Source: Candidatus Sulfotelmatobacter sp.
GTDB taxonomy: Bacteria; Acidobacteriota; Terriglobia; Terriglobales; Acidobacteriaceae
Assembly: GCA_030040965.1 (NCBI GenBank)
Contig: JASHOT010000130.1
Location: 1-64,000 of the forward strand
Reading direction: 5' to 3'
DNA: 64,000 bases
Shown: one piece after another, positions 321-13,642 of the stretch
Layout of the letters: each line of letters starts with the position of its first letter
Position numbering within the stretch: the first letter of the stretch is position 1
Made by a program: the position numbers and the translations under genes
Notes under the pieces: model-generated
What the model was told of the DNA's origin: nothing
Databases searched by the model: none
What the model saw: only the letters and a program-made list of their open reading frames with translations

Positions 321-950
321 ATGGAGCCAATGCCGATGAGGAGAGAAGTTCGGCAGTGCAGAGCCTGTGCGGTTGTGCTGTTCGCATTGCTGTGCGGAAG
401 CCTGGAACTGCGGGCGCAAGCGCCTTTGAAAAGAGGGACAGCTCAATCAACGCCGCCGTCTTCCACTCTGCCGAATAGCGGCCTCTCGTCGTCTGGCGGC
501 ACGCACGAAAATGCCACCGCTGATCTTCCAGACAGCCCGAGTGCAATCGCTTCGAAAGCGGCAACCAGGGAGTTGACGTGCGAGGATGTGCGAGGGGAAA
601 TTGTTATGCAAGCGAGTCTGCTGCCACAGCAGACGCAGTCATCCCCGTCTCAACCGCTTCAGTCTCAACCGCCCCAGTCTCAGTCGTCCCAGTCTCAATC
701 GTCGCCGGCTCAGCAGCAATCGCAACCACCCCCTCCACAAAAGCCGGTGGGAACCGCCATAGCTGGGAGCCCGACCGCGACCGGAATTGCCGCATCCCAA
801 CCAGCAGGTATGGCGGTTGCGCCGGCGAAACAGCGGCGGGTGCGGACCATCATCTTGCGAACGGGTGCGATTATAGGCGCCGGCGTTGCCCTCGGCACGA
901 TCGTCGCCCTCACGGCCGCAACGCCCAGCAAACCGCCGGGAGCGCATTGA
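321..950 (+). CDS. Hypothetical exported Q/S/P-rich protein with C-terminal hydrophobic segment
   Basis: I do not recognise a named family. The N-terminus has basic residues followed by a hydrophobic stretch (VVLFALLCGSLELRAQA), which fits a signal peptide cut after the AQA. The middle (about residues 95-150) is low-complexity Gln/Ser/Pro and is encoded by a short tandem DNA repeat. Near the C-terminus a basic patch (KQRRVRT) precedes a glycine-alanine hydrophobic helix (AIIGAGVALGTIVALTAAT), which could insert in a membrane. It starts 9 bases after the STAS gene and ends 7 bases before the kinase-like gene, so it probably belongs to the same transcript. The start could also be the ATG at 336. 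The reading frame is well supported by spacing, the function is not. Confidence 0.6.
   Translation: MEPMPMRREVRQCRACAVVLFALLCGSLELRAQAPLKRGTAQSTPPSSTLPNSGLSSSGGTHENATADLPDSPSAIASKAATRELTCEDVRGEIVMQASLLPQQTQSSPSQPLQSQPPQSQSSQSQSSPAQQQSQPPPPQKPVGTAIAGSPTATGIAASQPAGMAVAPAKQRRVRTIILRTGAIIGAGVALGTIVALTAATPSKPPGAH
645..704 (+). repeat. Four imperfect 15-bp tandem units encoding Gln/Ser/Pro
   Basis: Units beginning near 645, 660, 675 and 690 share the core cagtctca and vary at the end. They stay in frame and encode the QSQPPQSQSS-type linker of the surrounding protein. The array looks like a slippage-prone linker. Confidence 0.7.
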
Positions 951-957
951 AAATCCC

Positions 958-1656
958 GTGGTGGGCGAACTTCCAATCCTGGTCAGTTTCTCCGGTATTG
1001 ACGGAGCGGGCAAAAGCACCCAGATTCTTGCGCTCGAATCCTGGTTGCGCGATTCCGGCTTCTGTAGTTCGACTCTCACCATGTGGGATGACGTTGTGGT
1101 GGGACCCAGATTTCGGGAAATCGCGAGCCGCCTTGCATTTCGTGGCGACTGCGGAGTGGGCACACCGGAGAAGCCGGTCAATCGCCGCGACAAGAATGTT
1201 GATTCGTGGCTCCTGACGATTTTCCGTTATTGCATCTATGTAATGGACGCGGTCAGCCTGCGCGTGCGAGTCAGCAAGGCACGGCGAAATTCCGACTTCG
1301 ATGTCGTAATCTTCGATCGATTTATTTACGACGAGCTGGCAAATCTTCCCCTCGAACGAAGGTCCACCAATCTATTGGCCCGCCTTCTTTTGATGATTTC
1401 TCCCGAACCGGATGTCGCCTTTTTCGTAGATGCAGAGCCCGAGGCGGCGCGGTCGCGCAAGCCCGAATATCCGCTGGAATTTCTTCGCTGCAACCGCGAG
1501 GCTTATCTCAGGCTTGGCCGCATGGTGAGGCGTACCGTGGTTCTCGATGGCGGCACAGTCGAGCAAGTGGAGAGTACGATTCGGACCCAACTGAAGGCGA
1601 GGCTGTCCCGTAGTCCCAACCAAATTTCCGCTCGCGCCCACCCGCCCATGACCTAA
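958..1656 (+). CDS. Thymidylate kinase-like P-loop protein
   Basis: A P-loop of the dTMP kinase type is visible near the N-terminus (SGIDGAGKSTQ), followed in the middle by an FDRFIYDEL segment at the Walker-B/DR position. A C-terminal helix with RKPEYPLEFLRCNREAYL resembles the arginine-containing lid and substrate region of thymidylate kinases. The protein is about 232 residues, slightly longer than the usual 205-215. The frame stays open upstream to 886, but family alignment and avoidance of overlap favour GTG at 958 or 961. Essential Tmk normally lies near DNA polymerase genes. This copy sits inside a polysaccharide locus just ahead of a glycosyltransferase, so it may be a specialised paralogue phosphorylating another substrate. 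That role is inferred. Confidence 0.75.
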   Translation: MVGELPILVSFSGIDGAGKSTQILALESWLRDSGFCSSTLTMWDDVVVGPRFREIASRLAFRGDCGVGTPEKPVNRRDKNVDSWLLTIFRYCIYVMDAVSLRVRVSKARRNSDFDVVIFDRFIYDELANLPLERRSTNLLARLLLMISPEPDVAFFVDAEPEAARSRKPEYPLEFLRCNREAYLRLGRMVRRTVVLDGGTVEQVESTIRTQLKARLSRSPNQISARAHPPMT

Positions 1657-1766
1657 CCGCGAATCGCGTTGCGTTCCGGCGGTTTGCCTGGCGCACACCC
1701 TGCCAACATTCTTCTCCGCAAAGTCATCGAAAGTAAGTGCCACCGGGCCTCAGAGACCCATTGCTG

Positions 1767-3131
1767 ATGAGAATATGTCTGGTCACGACTTTCCCACCAA
1801 GCCACGGAGGGTTAAGTGAATACGGGCTTCACCTTGCGCGGGAGCTGCAACGCAATCCGTTCGTTAACCTGACGATTCTGGCCGATGAACTTTCCGCATC
1901 GACAGATGCGCATGCGGAACTTCCAGGATATTCGGTCGTGCGCTGCTGGTCGCCTGATCGACCAGGAAGTGTGGTCCGCTTATTGTCGGCACTGCGTTCG
2001 TCGAAGCCAGACGTTGTCTGGTTCAATTTGCTGTTCAGCACTTTCGGCAATAAGCCCTTGAATGCATTTGCGGGGTTGATGATCCCGCTGCTCACTCGTC
2101 TGAGCGGGCGTTACACGCACGTAACGCTCCATCATCTGATGGAGACGGTCGACCTCGAGGACTTAGGTGTACGCTTCGCCGGCGCGTATCGTTTGGCGGG
2201 CGCCGTAGCGACTCGAATGGTGCTGCTGGCAAATTCAGTGTCGGTGCTAATGCCGCGGTACCGCGAGATTCTGTTCGACAAGTACGGTCACGATAACGTG
2301 CACGTACGGGCGCACGGTATCCTGACGCGCTGTCCCGAATACCCGGATTTCGCACGGCGAGGTAACCCGCATCGCATTCTTGCGTTTGGAAAGTGGGGAA
2401 CCTATAAGCGGCTCGAGCTGATGATCGAAGCCTTCGCACTGATTCGAGCTCAAATGCCGAACGCGCGGTTGGTGATTGCAGGCAGCGATCATCCTCAGTG
2501 CGCTGGATACGTAGAATCAGTGCAACAAAAATGCCCCCCGGGTTCCGGAATCGAATTCACGGGGTATGTGGATGAGGAGCGGCTGCCCGATTTGTTTCAG
2601 CGCGCATCTGTCGCAGTAATGCCCTACACATCCTCCACCGGTTGCAGCGGTGTGGCCCACCTGGCGTGTGCGTACGGCGTGCCCATCGTATGCGCCGAGC
2701 TTCGCGACTTTCGAGAAATGGCCGATGGCGAAGATCTGGCAATTGATTTTTACGAGCCTGGCGCCGCTCCCAGCCTAGCGTCGTGCCTGATTCGTTTGCT
2801 CAATGATCCCGAACGCTTGCACGCGGCTGCAGAGCAGAATTTTTCCGCAGCGCTCCGCATGACAATGCCGAGCATCGTGCAGAAGTATCTGCGTCTTTTC
2901 GAATTGCAGCAAAGGCTGGACGCTTTACGTCAGGTTTCCAGATTCCACCGGCTGCCGAAATGGCTGCCTTCGAGGACCTTCTTATTGCGGGTGATGAACC
3001 GGGCCGCAAGGAGTTGGGTGGATCATCCTCTTGCGTATCGGGCTCGCAATAGTGGCAAGGTCTTGGATATGCCCGAAGATCGGTCTCGCGATTTCCTGCG
3101 TCGTGTGCCGGCAAGACGGCCTCGTCCCTGA
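1767..3131 (+). CDS. Glycosyltransferase family 4 (GT-B) protein
   Basis: The protein starts with the classic GT4 N-terminus MRICLVTTFPPSHGGLSEYG, where the glycine-rich loop contacts the sugar nucleotide. The second Rossmann domain begins at about residue 205 (RILAFGKWGTYKRLELMIEAF) and carries ARLVIAGS, EFTGYVDEERLPDLFQRASVAVMPY and GCSGVAHLACAYGVPIV, the sugar-nucleotide binding part of Glycos_transf_1. It should transfer a sugar to a lipid-linked or polysaccharide acceptor at the inner face of the inner membrane; donor and linkage cannot be read from sequence. The frame extends upstream to 1737, but the ATG at 1767 matches the family start. A basic C-terminal tail of about 60 residues follows the fold. 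It ends 25 bases from the convergent gene at 3156. Confidence 0.88.
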   Translation: MRICLVTTFPPSHGGLSEYGLHLARELQRNPFVNLTILADELSASTDAHAELPGYSVVRCWSPDRPGSVVRLLSALRSSKPDVVWFNLLFSTFGNKPLNAFAGLMIPLLTRLSGRYTHVTLHHLMETVDLEDLGVRFAGAYRLAGAVATRMVLLANSVSVLMPRYREILFDKYGHDNVHVRAHGILTRCPEYPDFARRGNPHRILAFGKWGTYKRLELMIEAFALIRAQMPNARLVIAGSDHPQCAGYVESVQQKCPPGSGIEFTGYVDEERLPDLFQRASVAVMPYTSSTGCSGVAHLACAYGVPIVCAELRDFREMADGEDLAIDFYEPGAAPSLASCLIRLLNDPERLHAAAEQNFSAALRMTMPSIVQKYLRLFELQQRLDALRQVSRFHRLPKWLPSRTFLLRVMNRAARSWVDHPLAYRARNSGKVLDMPEDRSRDFLRRVPARRPRP

Positions 3132-5450: not shown

Positions 5451-7457
5451 CTATCCCCGAAACTCTTCCGGCCGGTAGCGGCTTATGTCCGATTCTGGAT
5501 CGTAGGAGAAATAGCGGACGAGGTTCTTGAAATAGCGCAGCAGCGTGTTGATGTTCGTGTGATACCAACAACAGCGCGTCATCTTGGGCGAGAATCCGCA
5601 AATGAAATGGAAGCAACTGAAGGGAGCCGGGGGTTGGCTGAGCATGGCAGCCGCCATGCGGTGATTTCCGTCGAGGATAGTCAGCGGACCGGTCGCGTCT
5701 ACTCCAATGAGCAGCACCGTGGGGCTGACGGGCCCGCTCACGATTGACGCACTAAGCTGCTGCAGCTTGTCGAAGAATTCATCCTGCTTCGAGTAGGCCA
5801 GCACACGGCGGATCTGCTCCAAAATGTCTGGCGCATAAAAGCTGCCCTGCGCGATTCGCCGCCATTGCGCGCGCGGGAAGAAACGAATGCGTCCAATATC
5901 GTCCAGCGTGAGGCCTACGGCGAACCACTGAGTATCGGATGGCAACTCCCTCCACATTGCACCGCGGCGCAAGAATAACAACGCACGTCGCAGCTCATTC
6001 TCGCGCAGGTTGGTAAGATCCGGGTGCATAACGATCCGCTCAAAAACTGAGCGGTATTCGTCGAATTCGGGATGATGGAATTCGTTCCGCAGAAATTCTG
6101 CAATGACCTCTTCTTCTGTAAGAGGACGCAGAGCGTGGATTGGGCCGAATTTGCCCACGATTTCGCCGGCTCCGAACTCCTGGAGCAGTAACGGGATCGC
6201 CAGAACAGTCAGCAACGCGATCATAATCACCAGCTGCACAAGAATGACCTGTCGCAAGGTGTGATGAAATACGCAAATCCCACCAATGAAAACGACGCTA
6301 AAGCCGAGCTGCATCCAGCTGGTGTTGGCGATTTTTCGCGACATCTCATACGTAATTACGACCGAACTGAGCGAATAGACTCCGGCCGTGACTGCGTACA
6401 GAATGAGCAACTGCGGCAATATGGGGCCGCTGCTCATGGCGAAGTGAGCGCCGAAGATCATCCTCCAGAGGAAACTCGGCATGAGGCAAAGGACAAGGAT
6501 CAGGATCGTCAGAATTAGAAAGACGAGGCCCAGAGAGATCGTCAGGATGGACCGCGCCTCCCTTTCGTTCGACGTCTTGCTGGCTGAGACGGGAAACATT
6601 GTGTTCACCACCGACCAGGCGCACATGTTGACCAGACGACCTACCAAAGCTACCGCCGCATAGAGGCCGGCCTCGCTGGCCGCAAAAAAATGGTTTACCA
6701 GGATGATGTCGAAATTGTTGATGACCGTTTGCCCGGAGAAGAAAACGATTGCCTGCACACCTTCACGAAAGGAATCGGCAATTCCGCGCCAACGGAAACT
6801 GGTGATTTTGGGTGTGGGTCGCGCAAAACAGTAGGCGAGAATCACGGCCAATACACTGGCCAGCACCGCCCCGCGCACGCCGAGCCCGATTCCAATCAGC
6901 AAGAACACTCCAATCAGCCGCACCACACCTTCCAACAGGAAGTTGATGGCGAGCGGTCTGAACGCATGAATTCCCTGAATGAATCCCCGACGTACGCCAA
7001 GTGGAACGTAAAAAGCGGTGCCGAGGGCCAGGAGTCGTATGAGGTTGGCATCGGCCAGGTTGAGATATCGCGAGAGGGGACCTTCGAGCACAATCAGCAG
7101 TACGCCGATGCCAATTCCCGTGGTCCATGCCCGCTGGTGAAGGCTCGAGAAAATGGCTAACGCTTCTTCGTACGATTCCCGTCTCGCCACGTATTTTGCG
7201 CATACCACCTGAAACGACAATGTGATGGCTGATAGCAGCATCAACATCGTGTACACAGCAGTGGCATGAGCAAAGCCATCGGGGCCAAGCAAGCGGGCGC
7301 TGGCCACGTTGTAGATGAGGTTCGTGACGCCAACCACTCCGGAACTGGCCAGCAACGTGAGGCTGCCCCCGACCAGTTGGGAGCCCACACGTTTGGATTG
7401 CAATGCAGGTTTGGCTGCCGCATTGTGGTTTCCGTTTTCCGGGCCCAGAAAATTCAT
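5451..7457 (-). CDS. Wzx-type polysaccharide flippase fused to a ParB-like DGNHR domain
   Basis: Residues 1 to about 430 form a 12-14 helix integral membrane protein of the MATE/polysaccharide-synthesis flippase type (GVTNLIYNVASARLLGPDGF near the start, many hydrophobic helices, LYAAVALVGRLVNM in the middle). Such proteins flip lipid-linked sugars across the inner membrane. Unlike ordinary Wzx proteins of 420-480 residues, this one continues for about 235 soluble residues. That extension contains MHPDLTNLRENELRRALLF, a charged helical region and, at about residue 596, ILDGNHRMAAAML, the DGxHR signature of ParB/sulfiredoxin-fold domains. ATG at 7457 has AGGAAA 8 bases upstream and is preferred over the TTG at 7496. 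It lies 54 bases after the TPR-barrel gene on the same strand. The fusion is seen; its role is unknown. Confidence 0.82.
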   Translation of the reverse strand: MNFLGPENGNHNAAAKPALQSKRVGSQLVGGSLTLLASSGVVGVTNLIYNVASARLLGPDGFAHATAVYTMLMLLSAITLSFQVVCAKYVARRESYEEALAIFSSLHQRAWTTGIGIGVLLIVLEGPLSRYLNLADANLIRLLALGTAFYVPLGVRRGFIQGIHAFRPLAINFLLEGVVRLIGVFLLIGIGLGVRGAVLASVLAVILAYCFARPTPKITSFRWRGIADSFREGVQAIVFFSGQTVINNFDIILVNHFFAASEAGLYAAVALVGRLVNMCAWSVVNTMFPVSASKTSNEREARSILTISLGLVFLILTILILVLCLMPSFLWRMIFGAHFAMSSGPILPQLLILYAVTAGVYSLSSVVITYEMSRKIANTSWMQLGFSVVFIGGICVFHHTLRQVILVQLVIMIALLTVLAIPLLLQEFGAGEIVGKFGPIHALRPLTEEEVIAEFLRNEFHHPEFDEYRSVFERIVMHPDLTNLRENELRRALLFLRRGAMWRELPSDTQWFAVGLTLDDIGRIRFFPRAQWRRIAQGSFYAPDILEQIRRVLAYSKQDEFFDKLQQLSASIVSGPVSPTVLLIGVDATGPLTILDGNHRMAAAMLSQPPAPFSCFHFICGFSPKMTRCCWYHTNINTLLRYFKNLVRYFSYDPESDISRYRPEEFRG

Positions 7458-7511
7458 GATCGTGTTTCCTGTCGATTCATCACCAATGTTCTGCAAACCG
7501 AGGCAATCACA

Positions 7512-10500
7512 TCAGAACAAAGTAAGGTGCACGACCGGCAGAAGGGTTGTACGAGTTGAGCCCGGAAAATCATAGAAGGATTGTTGTTCGATGCCGGCTG
7601 AAAATCGTATTGGATATGAGATCGAAGTTTCAGAATCGCTGCCTTTCATTGACCCTCGCATGGATCGGACGTAAGAGACTGTGAACTCGCTCAAGGCGTT
7701 GTCGTAGGTGTGATAGCCCTGGCCGCGCGAAAGAACGAACGATCCCTGCATGCTCCATCGGCGGGTCGCCCGCAAATCGAACCGTGCTCCCGGAACGAAA
7801 GCCTGTGCAATGGCGTAGCGAGTGTCAAAGACCTCCCACGAGCGCAGGGACTCCGCCAACAAGGCCGCTGTAATACGATCACCAAACTTGTGTTGCAATC
7901 CAGCGTAGGAGGAAGTCGTGAAGTATTCGACAACTTGCGGTCGGTACAGCAGGTCGCGGGCCGTGTAGCCGGCGATCAGAGAGGTATTGCTCCAAGCATG
8001 CCCCACGGTGAATTCCACATTTGCGAAGAGATCGCGCGAGTGCAAATTCTGGTCAGTAAACGGGCCGGCTTCCCGAATGGCGCTGCCATGCACCGCTACC
8101 CAATTGAAGAATGAATTTGTGTACAGATAGAGGAATTGCCGGAACAGGTTCTGGCTCATGAACTGTGGTGAGATCGTGTCGCGGCGAACGGTGTACTGAA
8201 GACCTCCGTTGAATGTGATGGAATTTGTTCCGAAGCGCAGAACGGGCGTTATTCCCCCGTTGAAGTAGGTATCGTAGGTATTACGATCTTCAACTACATT
8301 TACGCTGGGAAACAGGAATCGGCCGGCCGTAAGGCTCTCGCCAAAGAAGCCGGAGATGAGCGGAAACTTTCCGATGCGTACTTGATAATGGGATTGTGCC
8401 AGACTCTGGAACGAATGGCGGGGCGGCGGCAGTAGAGCGGGATTTGTGACATTCAAAATCCTGGCGTCGAGAGCGTACACGTTGAGATCTTCCAGCGCCG
8501 GAGCAAAGGTCGCTTCCGGCAGAAGGCTCAACATTCCATTGATTTCTTTTCCGACTTCATCCGCCGATTCATATTCCTGGGTCTCGGCCAGATTCTGATT
8601 TTCCTGTCCGGCCACACTGCTGGCTTGCGCAAAATCGGAAAGGGCGTGGACGGAATCCTGTCGCTGACGGTAAACGCTGGCCGCGGCCATCATGTATTCG
8701 TAGTCGTCACGAAAATTCGCTGGCGAGCCCAATTGGGAAAGAGCCCGCTCGGCGCTCTGGGTCTTGCCTTCGGCGAGGTATGTATTCGTTAACCCGAGCG
8801 ATACCGATCTCAAATCGGCTCCCGCCAACTTCGCTTTATCGAAATATGTCTCTGAGAGATCGAAGTCGTGAAGAGCAAGAAAAATATTTGCCGCGGCAAC
8901 AACGTCTTCGGGATTCACCGGACCCCTACCCGCGCGCGCCTCCGCGAAGCCAAGCGCGACCTGGCGGCGTGCCTCGTCGGGATGTCCACGTTCGACGAAT
9001 AGATGAGCCAGGGCAAGACGCACATCGAGACGGTCGCCCTCTGGAACATCGAGCGCGCGAGAAAAGCGCTGCACGGCCGCATCCCGCTCGCCCAGCGTCA
9101 GCAATGCGTCCCCAGTCGCCATCAAAATCTTGACCTGATTGCCCCCATATTGCTCCGCAGATGCAATGTCGCGGTGGGCCGCATCCTTGTCATTCTGCTT
9201 GGCATCAACCTGCGCTCGTAGTGCATAAACTTCCGGGTCGGACGGTGATAGCTTTTCCGCGATATCGAGGGCTGCGAGCGAATCGCTGTAGTCATTGGCT
9301 CGATAGAGAGCGTCGGCATAGGCCAGTTGGGTGGGCACGTCGTTCGGATCTTCCTGAAGCACGGCGCGATACTCCGGCAGAGCACGGGAGAAATCTCGTG
9401 ACTGCCGATATGCTTCCGCGCGCGCCAGGTGCCACGCGTGTGTCGTTCCCAGCCGCTTGCCCGCAATTTCCAATTGCGCCAACGCTGATCGCGGGCGATG
9501 GCGCTGCAAGTCAGCGTAGGCCAGCCCGAGGTGTGCTTCCGCGTAGTCAGGTTGCAGCGTGAGGGCGACTGCAAAATCGCGCGCCGCCTGATTCGGCTCG
9601 CGCAGGTCGTTCAGAACGAAGCCGCGGTTGACATAACCCGTTGCCATCTCCGGATCGCGTTCAAGAGCTCGCGTGAAGTCACTGACCGCTGTGCGCAGGT
9701 CCCCGTTATGAACGCTCAAATAACCGGAGATCAAGGCCAGGTCTTTATCGTTCTCGAATCGCCGGTCGTATTTTGCAATCAGCGCTGCCGTGTCCTGGTA
9801 ACGTCCGAGGTAGTAGAGGTCGTAGGCCAGATAGACAACGCCTTCGCGGTCATTCGGAAGTTTCTCCAGGACTTTGTACCCAAGATCGGCAGAAGCGGCG
9901 TAGTCGCCCTTCCACGTCAGATACCGTTCTCGCTCGCGACTCACCTGCGGTGCATCGGCTGCTGGTCCATGCGCCCGGTCGAGCCAACGCTTTGCCAGAT
10001 CAAGATCGTGAGTTTCAAGTGCGGCATTGGCGCCTGCTGCAATTACAAGCGGGTTTGCACTCGCGTGCTCGTATGCGTGCTCGTACTCAGTTTCGGCCGG
10101 ATGGAATTTCCTCTCGGATGTATAGAGATCTCCAAGTGCAAGATACGCGGCAAAATCGTTGGGATGAAACTTGGCCGCGCGCGTGAAATAATCCTCAGCG
10201 GCTTTGTTGTCGCCGCGGTCCCGCGCCAAATACCCAAGCGACGCAAGCGCGGTGCGGTTATGGGAGTCGAGTTCAAGCACCTTTGTAAAAGTGCCCTCCG
10301 CAGCCTCTTTTTGTCCCATCTTCCACTGCAAACTCGCGAAATTTAACAGCGAATTTGTGTTCGTGGGCGCCAGTGCGAGGGCGTTGTGCAGATCTTTATT
10401 CGCGGCATCAAAATTTCCATTGGCCATTTCGATCGCGGCGCGCAGCCGAAGGCACTCTGACCCGGAACCGGATTGTGGCGGCAGGCTCTGGATTTCAGAA

Positions 10501-11684
10501 GCCGCAGTGTCGAGTTGCCGCTTAGCATCGTCGTCGTTATTTTGGCGTAGGTCCAACTCATAGAGATTCAGCCGCAGCTCGATCGGATAAAGCGCGCCTT
10601 CAGGAACTGACGCCGGGAGTTTGCTCAGCGCCAGCGTGTATTCCTGGCTGGCGTCCGCCAAGCGATCCTGTGACTCAGCCACTTGCCCAAGGATGGCGTG
10701 CAGGCGGTAATTTTGCGGCTCAGTTTTTTGTGCCTCGTCGAGAAAAGTTTGCGCTGCATCAGGCTGCCCTAGGTTCACCAGTGCCTGCGCCGCGCTCAGA
10801 GCAAGTCCGATATTTCCCTTCGCCGATGTCGCCAGCTTCGAGTAAAGACTCGCCGCTTCTTGAGGTCGGCCCGCGAGTTGATACGTGTAGGCCAGGTCCG
10901 CTTGTACATCGATCGATTTCGCAGGAATGGCCCGCAGACTGGAAATCGCCTGATCGAATTTTCCTTGATCGCGAAACTCGTCTGCGACGGCCCGCAGCAC
11001 TTCCGGGTCCCGCGGACCGCGAGCCTTGGCACGGTTTAAATACTGTGCCGACAGTTCCGCATTGCCAAGTCGATCATAGGCGTGCGCGATCAGAAGATCC
11101 GTGTGCGCCGAACCCTTCAAGGCATCTGCTCGCTTGAGTAATTCCATCGCACGATTTGGATCCGAAGACAGAATGAGTTCGCCGGCAAGTTGCAAGCTGT
11201 TGGCGTCTTTTGTGTTCGAGTTGATGATTTTCTGCAGCGCGGCTTCGGCTTCCGCGGTGCGGCCCATCTTGGCATAAGTTTGTGCCAGGCCAGCCAAGCC
11301 ATGCGCGGAGTTCGGCTCGATGCGCAGACCGTGATTGTAGGCATCGATCGACTCCTGGTACCGTTCGCCCAGGCGCGCGGCATAACCCAACAAGAACCAA
11401 AGCTCCGCATTTTGCGGAGCCGCATTGGCCGCGTGCTGGGCAAATGAGATGGCCGATGTGTAATCGCCGCGGCTCATCGCATCCTGCGCGGCGCGCGCTT
11501 GCCGCGCCACCTCGATGCTCGATCCCCATCCCAGGCTGGAGTTGTTCTGCTGACTTTCGGTGGAAGTGCCGGATTGCTGGGATGACGAAGGAGTACCGGG
11601 TTTACTGACGTCGTAAGTCTGGGCGAGAGCGCAGCGTAAAAGAAAAACAATCCAAAAGCTCGTGAGCGGAAGTCGGCTTTTCAC
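7512..11684 (-). CDS. Giant TPR plus outer-membrane beta-barrel protein (BcsC/PelB-like architecture)
   Basis: About 1390 residues. A signal peptide (LPLTSFWIVFLLRCALAQ) precedes about 950 residues of tandem TPR units (for example GLRIEPNSAHGLAGLAQTYA and EKLSPSDPEVYALRAQVDA). The last 330 residues are alternating beta strands rich in aromatic and glycine residues and end in HLTLF, with the terminal Phe typical of outer-membrane barrels. BcsC and PelB share this design: the TPRs guide polymer through the periplasm and the barrel is the exit pore. The start is uncertain. GTG at 11684 gives a good signal peptide and leaves room for a divergent promoter; the frame is open to 11873. The downstream flippase is probably co-transcribed. 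No glucan synthase (BcsA) is in the window, so this is not called cellulose export. Confidence 0.8.
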   Translation of the reverse strand: MKSRLPLTSFWIVFLLRCALAQTYDVSKPGTPSSSQQSGTSTESQQNNSSLGWGSSIEVARQARAAQDAMSRGDYTSAISFAQHAANAAPQNAELWFLLGYAARLGERYQESIDAYNHGLRIEPNSAHGLAGLAQTYAKMGRTAEAEAALQKIINSNTKDANSLQLAGELILSSDPNRAMELLKRADALKGSAHTDLLIAHAYDRLGNAELSAQYLNRAKARGPRDPEVLRAVADEFRDQGKFDQAISSLRAIPAKSIDVQADLAYTYQLAGRPQEAASLYSKLATSAKGNIGLALSAAQALVNLGQPDAAQTFLDEAQKTEPQNYRLHAILGQVAESQDRLADASQEYTLALSKLPASVPEGALYPIELRLNLYELDLRQNNDDDAKRQLDTAASEIQSLPPQSGSGSECLRLRAAIEMANGNFDAANKDLHNALALAPTNTNSLLNFASLQWKMGQKEAAEGTFTKVLELDSHNRTALASLGYLARDRGDNKAAEDYFTRAAKFHPNDFAAYLALGDLYTSERKFHPAETEYEHAYEHASANPLVIAAGANAALETHDLDLAKRWLDRAHGPAADAPQVSRERERYLTWKGDYAASADLGYKVLEKLPNDREGVVYLAYDLYYLGRYQDTAALIAKYDRRFENDKDLALISGYLSVHNGDLRTAVSDFTRALERDPEMATGYVNRGFVLNDLREPNQAARDFAVALTLQPDYAEAHLGLAYADLQRHRPRSALAQLEIAGKRLGTTHAWHLARAEAYRQSRDFSRALPEYRAVLQEDPNDVPTQLAYADALYRANDYSDSLAALDIAEKLSPSDPEVYALRAQVDAKQNDKDAAHRDIASAEQYGGNQVKILMATGDALLTLGERDAAVQRFSRALDVPEGDRLDVRLALAHLFVERGHPDEARRQVALGFAEARAGRGPVNPEDVVAAANIFLALHDFDLSETYFDKAKLAGADLRSVSLGLTNTYLAEGKTQSAERALSQLGSPANFRDDYEYMMAAASVYRQRQDSVHALSDFAQASSVAGQENQNLAETQEYESADEVGKEINGMLSLLPEATFAPALEDLNVYALDARILNVTNPALLPPPRHSFQSLAQSHYQVRIGKFPLISGFFGESLTAGRFLFPSVNVVEDRNTYDTYFNGGITPVLRFGTNSITFNGGLQYTVRRDTISPQFMSQNLFRQFLYLYTNSFFNWVAVHGSAIREAGPFTDQNLHSRDLFANVEFTVGHAWSNTSLIAGYTARDLLYRPQVVEYFTTSSYAGLQHKFGDRITAALLAESLRSWEVFDTRYAIAQAFVPGARFDLRATRRWSMQGSFVLSRGQGYHTYDNALSEFTVSYVRSMRGSMKGSDSETSISYPIRFSAGIEQQSFYDFPGSTRTTLLPVVHLTLF

Positions 11685-11902
11685 AGAATCATCCGGCAAC
11701 GCATGGAATGCGGAACCCTCCGCAAAGCCATCGTTGCGGTTTTGTTCAGATGCCGAGGAGCGGCGCAAGGCTGCCGCTGAAACTATGACTACAGCACCTA
11801 AGTCTTGGAAAGACGGGCACATCGGAGCCGGCAAAAAACGGGAACAAACCTTGCTTGCGATTTTTGAATCCAAGAACCGCTACAGACGAGGCACACCAAT
11901 CG

Positions 11903-13642
11903 ATGATTCGTGGCGAAGCGTACTCACGCCCAATTCCGCTCATGGCCGTGGTTCTGGTGGCGCTTGCGGTGCATGGCCCGCTCTTGTTCATGCAACTTCC
12001 ATCCAGTTCCTTCGACGCCAACTTCCACATCTTCTTTGCATCGCATTATGTTCATCACTGGTTTAATCCGTGGAACGAAAAGTGGTTTGCCGGATTCTCG
12101 CAAACCACTTACCCCCCGCTGACGCACCAGTGGATTGCCCTGCTTTCCAACGTGGTTGGTTTGAACATGGGCTACATGCTGGTGCAGCTCATCGCCGTGC
12201 TGCTTTTGCCGGTGGGGGTTTATCGGTTTTCTCGCATCTGGGTGGATGAAACGGCATCAAGCTACGCGGCCCTGGGCAGCGTCTTTTTGGGATCGTTGGC
12301 GTTCCTGGTGTACCAGGCGGGGCAACTGGCGACGGTGGCCTCCGCGGCGTTGTATCTCAACGCGTTGCCGTATTTTTATGAGTGGATGAATGACGCTTCG
12401 TTCGTCGCGATGGCGAAGGGAGTTGCCATCAGTTGGGCGGCTGCCGCGGCCCACCACGTGACGCTGATTTTTGGAATCGTCTTTTTCGCCGGGCCGGTGT
12501 TGTGGATCGCATGTCAGGATGCGGTCCACGAGCGCATCGCCGCCTCGCTGGCGGGTGCAATTTCACGCGCAGCGGTTTTCGCCGTCGTCGTGGCAGCTGG
12601 AGTTGGAGTCATTCTGCTGCCTTTCTGGCTCACGCTCATTCAGCATCCCGTTCACCAGATTCCGATTCCTCATGACAGCCGGGCGAATTTTCTGCTGCAT
12701 TCGATCACCGGGATCAATTATTTCGTGATTCCCTACGGCGCAATGATTTTGGCGCTGCCATTCATTCTTTTACGTGGCGCCGGCACGCCAAGGCTGCGCC
12801 CGCTCCTGTTCGGCTTCTGGCTGGCGTTCCTCTTCGGCCTTGGCGGCACAACCCCTTTGCCACGTTGGCTGCTGGGTCGCGCTTATGACATTTTGACCTT
12901 CGAACGCTTTACCTTCTGGGCGACGTTGCTGGCGCTGCCCTTCGTCGGCCTGCTGGTCACGAATTTGCTTCGAAGATTCACAAGCAAGGCTGCGCTCGCG
13001 TTATCGCTGGCGACCGTCATGACAATTGGCGCCGCGTTGTGGTGGCTGAAGGCCAACCCTTACCGGCCGACAGCAACCGTAGATGTCGACCCTGTGGTTG
13101 CATTTCTCAATCGCGATGGCCACGACACTTATCGCTATCTCACTCTCGGCTTTGCCAGCGATCTCGCTAAAGTTGCGACCTACACCAATGCCACCAGCGT
13201 CGACGGCGATTACAACTCGGCCCGCCTGCTGCCTGAGATGACGCACTACGGTTCAGCCCAGCTAACCAACGCCAAGTTTTACGGCACCGCGGGAATGTCC
13301 GCGCTGCGCAGCATGCTTGCACATGCGGACCGTTACGGGTTGAAATTCGTTTTTGTTCACGATTCCTACTACGAGCCGCTGCTCACCTTCGTGGGCTGGC
13401 GCAAGATCGAAGTGTTCGATCACGGCGAGGTAACCGCGTGGTCCAAAGAAGACGTTCCCCCGGCGCATCAGATTCCGTCCGATGCGATTCCACCGGCATG
13501 GCAGGGACTCATGTGGGGCACGCTGCCGCTCGGTGCCAGCCTGCTGGCGATATTCCTGGAAATCTTCTTGCCCGGTACGCGGCGGGCCCCACTCCAGTTC
13601 CAGATGCGGCCGCCGCAAAATGAAAAACAGTATGTGGCGTGA
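11903..13642 (+). CDS. Polytopic membrane protein, GT-C-like (6-pyruvoyl-tetrahydropterin-synthase-related membrane family)
   Basis: The protein has about 12 hydrophobic segments and a large first outward loop containing SSFDANFHIFFASHYVHHW and then TTYPPLTHQW. An acidic loop after the first helix and a YPPL motif are the pattern of GT-C type glycosyltransferases and of the PTPS-related membrane proteins found in polysaccharide loci. The last 170 residues (VDVDPVVAFLNRDGHDTYRY onward) form a soluble domain followed by one more helix, also typical of that family. It would use a polyprenyl-phosphate sugar at the periplasmic face, but this is inferred. ATG at 11903 is preferred over an in-frame start at 11855. 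It is divergent from the TPR-barrel gene and leads a run of closely spaced plus-strand genes. Confidence 0.7.
   Translation: MIRGEAYSRPIPLMAVVLVALAVHGPLLFMQLPSSSFDANFHIFFASHYVHHWFNPWNEKWFAGFSQTTYPPLTHQWIALLSNVVGLNMGYMLVQLIAVLLLPVGVYRFSRIWVDETASSYAALGSVFLGSLAFLVYQAGQLATVASAALYLNALPYFYEWMNDASFVAMAKGVAISWAAAAAHHVTLIFGIVFFAGPVLWIACQDAVHERIAASLAGAISRAAVFAVVVAAGVGVILLPFWLTLIQHPVHQIPIPHDSRANFLLHSITGINYFVIPYGAMILALPFILLRGAGTPRLRPLLFGFWLAFLFGLGGTTPLPRWLLGRAYDILTFERFTFWATLLALPFVGLLVTNLLRRFTSKAALALSLATVMTIGAALWWLKANPYRPTATVDVDPVVAFLNRDGHDTYRYLTLGFASDLAKVATYTNATSVDGDYNSARLLPEMTHYGSAQLTNAKFYGTAGMSALRSMLAHADRYGLKFVFVHDSYYEPLLTFVGWRKIEVFDHGEVTAWSKEDVPPAHQIPSDAIPPAWQGLMWGTLPLGASLLAIFLEIFLPGTRRAPLQFQMRPPQNEKQYVA

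Follow-up and report, generated by a model that had tools for sequence, protein, structure and literature searches.

A predicted Wzx-type flippase paired, and often fused, with a domain of probable ParB/sulfiredoxin fold in one group of soil bacteria

Why should a membrane transporter of lipid-linked sugars continue into a soluble domain with a ParB-like motif? The question is raised by a gene (5451..7457, minus strand) in the 64,000-nucleotide stretch of Candidatus Sulfotelmatobacter sp. DNA analyzed here (the window), whose frame runs unbroken from 7457 to 5451 and encodes 668 residues plus a stop codon (5451-5453); the ATG at 7457 was preferred over an alternative TTG start at 7496. The initial annotation had described it as a Wzx/MATE-type transporter joined to a ParB/sulfiredoxin (Srx)-like domain and speculated that nucleotides might gate polysaccharide export. 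We delimited three parts, all on the minus strand: a flippase (residues 1-430, 6168..7457), a linker (residues 431-440, 6138..6167) and a C-terminal soluble domain (residues 441-668, 5454..6137). The flippase had thus been correctly ended near residue 430, while the soluble part, put at about 235 residues, is shortened to ca. 228 by the linker at ca. 430-440.

The flippase fold was supported. The Polysacc_synt family of Pfam (PF01943) covers residues 33-292 (3.5e-12, 46.8 bits against a cut-off of 28.2), and the AlphaFold model of the whole protein, built on 41 fused relatives, predicts 12 transmembrane helices up to residue 430 (the first long helix counted as two), giving a MOP fold with at least 12 helices. 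In Foldseek comparisons, the membrane part retrieved WzxE, the lipid III flippase (TM-score normalized to WzxE of up to 0.76), and MATE transporters. Similarity to the remaining flippases of this genome and of related ones was weak (ca. 21 to 35% identity over partial stretches, E value of 0.003 or worse). The N-terminal part is probably a flippase that moves sugar-carrying lipids through the inner membrane, and both of its termini would be cytoplasmic, given the even number of spans and the arrangement known for the MOP fold. Beyond the last helix, the model (pTM 0.68, at which the orientation of the domain relative to the flippase is not fixed) shows a low-confidence linker at 430-433 followed by a compact alpha/beta domain.

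Pairing of flippase and domain in fused and split forms

We searched 298 genomes of the same order and found the domain in 97 of them, the same 97 that carried the flippase (E ≤ 1e-40). The domain was fused to, or within 200 bases of, a flippase of this type at 103 of 103 flippase places and, conversely, a flippase was present at 103 of the 105 places with a domain. In this group of soil bacteria, the association is obligate. Of the 71 loci retrieved first, 48 were fused single frames (ca. 42 distinct sequences, with a few loci duplicating a gene already counted), whereas 20 distinct loci had two genes, flippase followed by domain. Where the genes are split, the stop codon of the first and the start codon of the second nearly always overlap in the bases ATGA (GTGA at one locus), often behind a GAGG-like sequence; judging from the sequence, the two genes are probably translationally coupled. 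This gene boundary corresponds to the linker of the fused form, which has low pLDDT and is the least conserved stretch of the protein (none of 18 columns invariant).

In a tree of both parts, one change separates the fused from the split forms, and the branch concerned has a support of 99. When other flippases served as the outgroup of the flippase tree, branches reached up to 10 changes per column, too long to put fusion and fission in order, although seven of the eight outgroup rows joined the fused side.

The occurrence of two genes in some relatives might also suggest that a sequencing or assembly error has joined them in the window, as the initial annotation had considered. We regard this as negligibly probable and reject it: fused frames were found, uninterrupted, at 48 loci of many independent assemblies, the fused form makes up one side of a supported branch, and the split forms are genuine overlapping genes. 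Since independent assemblies carry the fusion and all 64 aligned domains carry GNHR, neither can be attributed to chance or assembly error. The search for further fusions that the annotation had proposed returned both the 48 fused loci and a pairing at every flippase place.

Fold and conserved residues of the C-terminal domain

Searches with the domain against Pfam, NCBIfam, PHROGs and PDB sequences gave no relevant match. Its AlphaFold2 model, built on 64 sequences (pLDDT 92.3, pTM 0.88), retrieved ParB, Noc, Srx, SerK, the Pyrococcus homologue of SerK or Osa in 34 of the 50 Foldseek matches listed, and 13 of the best 14 belonged to the ParB/Srx superfamily. However, all E values were above 0.1 and TM-scores were ca. 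0.2 to 0.4, none significant alone, which makes the domain a divergent member at most. Profile comparison with hhalign gave a probability of 53 against 28 ParB_N proteins of the same order and of 76 against the four most divergent of them (59 with the standard tool, applied to 11 of the 28), versus 0.7 or less for ten unrelated neighbor families used as controls. In the alignment, GNHR falls on the GERR of ParB, and the helix and strand before it fall on their ParB counterparts. A PF02195 protein of the same order (L215), which matches ParB clearly and SbnI, SerK and Srx weakly among PDB sequences, reads SGNHR at this motif.

No single score is strong, and the overall pattern is consistent. 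We consider a ParB/Srx fold likely, and well supported rather than proved; the domain would be a divergent branch of it, extended by a helical part at the N terminus and by a helix at the C terminus. The competing possibility that the fold is unrelated and resembles ParB/Srx only in a GxxR motif would fit the lack of any significant sequence match or Foldseek E value, but it leaves unexplained both the enrichment for one superfamily and a profile match in register with the helix-strand-strand-helix around ParB Box II, set against ten negative controls; we therefore judge it improbable. The fold proposed in the initial annotation from one motif is supported by the domain model, the Foldseek list and the ParB profile match, which speak against the unrelated fold named there as a refutation.

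Conservation was assessed in an alignment of the 64 domain sequences, down to 40% identity. The proportion of invariant columns was 14% in the domain versus 11% in the flippase. A first block, MWRELPxxTxW (residues 501-511, 5925..5957, minus strand), has E504, P506 and W511 invariant in all 64 sequences, and a last one, SxxMxxxCWY (residues 623-632, 5562..5591, minus strand), has S623, M626, C630 and W631. We know of no ParB counterpart of the MWRELP and CWY blocks. F527, P528, R529, W532 and T593 were likewise invariant, as were G597, N598, H599, R600 and some hydrophobic positions. Using the definitions of Box I (C motif) and Box II (P motif) in PMC12704722, the Box I counterpart would be residues 515-533 (5859..5915, minus strand), with an invariant FPRxxW (527-532); from the topology of the model, RFFPRAQW (525-532) would occupy the site of the base-contacting C motif of ParB. 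The Box II (GxxR) counterpart is [DE]GNHR (residues 596-600, 5658..5672, minus strand), contained in ILDGNHRMAAAML (residues 594-606). GNHR (597-600) was found in all 64 sequences and lies at the start of a helix (598-607) after a strand (592-596), the placement of GxxR in Box II. No Box III (ENLQR-like) was found in the domain alignment, and noncanonical members of the fold often lack it (PMC12704722). A sulfiredoxin-type catalytic cysteine (GxCHR) was discarded, the position being Asn in 64 of 64 sequences.

Glycan locus, flippase-free copies and proposed function

We read the surroundings of the gene as a putative locus for glycan synthesis and export. Recurring neighbors in relatives are a TPR protein of 1,100 to 1,450 residues, a multi-spanning membrane protein, a GT4 glycosyltransferase and a thymidylate-kinase-like P-loop protein. 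There are also a GT2, a DUF5666-like protein, a small TPR protein and a hexapeptide protein, the last perhaps a sugar nucleotidyl- or acyltransferase. In the window, the TPR protein (1453 residues, 7512..11873, minus strand, with TPR matches) is the upstream neighbor on the same strand and is conserved beside the flippase in many relatives. The GT4 glycosyltransferase (1737..3131, plus strand) and the membrane protein (595 residues, 11855..13642, plus strand, with no Pfam or NCBIfam match) are conserved too, and the P-loop protein (886..1656, plus strand; PF02223, 3.9e-8) is retained in most relatives' glycan loci. We identified neither an initiating transferase in the locus nor a ParA among the neighbors examined.

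Some of these neighbors deserve a comment of their own. The last ca. 370 residues of the TPR protein matched no family and are possibly an outer-membrane beta-barrel, and the protein may be an unrecognized PelB/BcsC-like exporter. The P-loop protein may phosphorylate a sugar, nucleotide or lipid instead of dTMP, and the 595-residue membrane protein is a candidate polymerase or GT-C type transferase. Often adjoining the kinase-like gene is a small protein (321-950, plus strand) with no family match; its C-terminal hydrophobic helix follows a conserved GTAxAP...APAxQ+R motif, and it also has a low-complexity Q/S/P region.

The domain also occurs without the flippase. Two of the 97 domain-bearing genomes (G193 and G095), and only these, have a second copy elsewhere, adjacent to an aroA-like gene; there, a single hydrophobic helix takes the place of the flippase and the motifs are intact (L038:7587-8564 and L051:7761-8783, mutually syntenic); tblastn found no flippase remnant near them. 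A stand-alone distant homologue was detected in another family of the phylum (G464; profile E value 1.7e-14, reciprocal 1.2e-7), and others on large plasmids (megaplasmids) of Streptomycetaceae, called "hypothetical protein" where annotated. Three of these (L160:1296-1892, L226:5004-5585 and L227:5001-5591) have ca. 195 to 200 amino acids, a DGHIR/EGHLR motif and no Pfam family. The residues shared with the domain are a P, two W and GxxR, and the CWY block is absent. Searches of phages, plasmids and viral contigs with the domain found nothing, and there is therefore no sign of a mobile-element ParB. Given its flippase-free copies and distant stand-alone homologues, the domain probably serves a function in its own right.

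We propose a two-part module for the export of exopolysaccharide or another glycoconjugate, in which a Wzx-type flippase would carry on its last helix, or be co-translated with, a ParB/Srx-fold domain that is probably NTP binding. The even number of helices and the absence of an evident signal sequence at the start of the split domains would place it on the cytoplasmic side. Nucleotide would be bound through GNHR and spent on modifying the lipid-linked glycan or a component of the export machine, most likely by phosphoryl transfer as in SerK and Srx, and flipping would follow this licensing step at the cytoplasmic mouth. The obligate pairing argues that the domain serves the flippase step; flippase-free copies, stand-alone relatives and invariant residues beyond the nucleotide boxes suggest that it has a chemistry of its own as well, and the latter residues could mark a substrate site and an enzymatic role. 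From models and sequence patterns, we give an NTP-dependent enzyme or licensing domain serving the flippase, as the best explanation of the whole, a probability of roughly one half. The fold and the module taken together are probable; the enzymatic mechanism by itself is tentative.

A pure regulatory switch, close to the gating idea of the initial annotation, would have NTP binding (and hydrolysis) change the docking of the domain on the cytoplasmic face and so open or close the flippase. Nucleotide switching is known for this fold (PMC12704722), and the one-to-one association with the flippase and a cytoplasmic position beside the transport path on a flexible linker would suit it. We nevertheless find it rather unlikely, because flippase-free anchored copies keep the motifs, stand-alone relatives exist, and the domain is as conserved as the transporter, with many invariant residues outside the nucleotide motifs. 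For these reasons the gating idea is weakened, and NTP-dependent modification or licensing is favored. The domain could instead have lost its nucleotide chemistry and act only as a scaffold through which the flippase recruits a glycosyltransferase, the TPR protein or the thymidylate-kinase-like protein. The conserved gene neighborhood and the weak similarity to active members agree with such a role, but GNHR, FPR and CW blocks invariant in 64 sequences would be unusual for a mere docking domain, making it an improbable one.

That the favored licensing domain defines a new class of export machine, in which a fused ParB/Srx-fold enzyme spends NTP to modify or license each lipid-linked unit before flipping, is a more speculative extension, to which we give limited credence. 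If true, an otherwise ion-driven or passive flippase would gain a nucleotide-dependent checkpoint, and sugar export may depend on an undescribed nucleotide-driven step. This bears on the control of Wzx-type flippases and their coupling to synthesis, a largely open question in the field. An obligate, often fused domain whose fold is of a nucleotide-binding type brings flippase control within reach of experiments on a single purified domain and a single point mutant.

Comparison with known systems

The flippase resembles Wzx/MOP flippases (WzxE, PF01943) in its 12 helices, its MOP fold and its glycan-gene surroundings, but unlike them it comes with a soluble ParB/Srx-type domain, either attached or co-translated. 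SerK/SbnI and sulfiredoxin are enzymes without HTH, and Foldseek ranks SerK and Srx together with ParB. Their P motifs, DGHHR in SerK and GGCHR in Srx, are presumably of the same GxHR type as the GNHR of the domain, a likeness by motif only. The extra helical N-terminal part, the MWRELP and CWY blocks and the membrane attachment set the present domain apart from them. The locus also has what we take to be a likeness to the PelD-PelG layout, in which a nucleotide-sensing part adjoins a flippase-like protein, alongside a TPR protein and a GT4. PelD senses c-di-GMP for Pel export; it is a sensor of a cyclic dinucleotide and not of the ParB/Srx fold, so that the likeness is one of layout only. Membership in the Pel family was rejected, as no Pel model matched any neighbor scanned.

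With the ParB/Noc CTPases (PF02195), the domain shares the topology around Box II, the GxxR motif and a profile match in register, but it sits on a membrane protein and is not a DNA clamp. It is not a canonical ParB of a parABS system, having no PF02195 match, no HTH or dimerization family and no Box III. Only in late 2025 did a survey (PMC12704722) cover what the ParB fold does outside chromosome segregation. The main text of that survey does not mention any flippase or polysaccharide fusion, and open-access full texts contained nothing relevant on a flippase with ParB or sulfiredoxin, a scope within which novelty is not proved. The many ParB-CTPase-fold fusions that the survey lists resemble the present one in that lineage-specific partners appear repeatedly and that the fold binds ATP, CTP or GTP. 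Its query, in contrast, was PF02195, which misses the present domain; the pairing described here would add a membrane-transport branch to the ParB/Srx fold.
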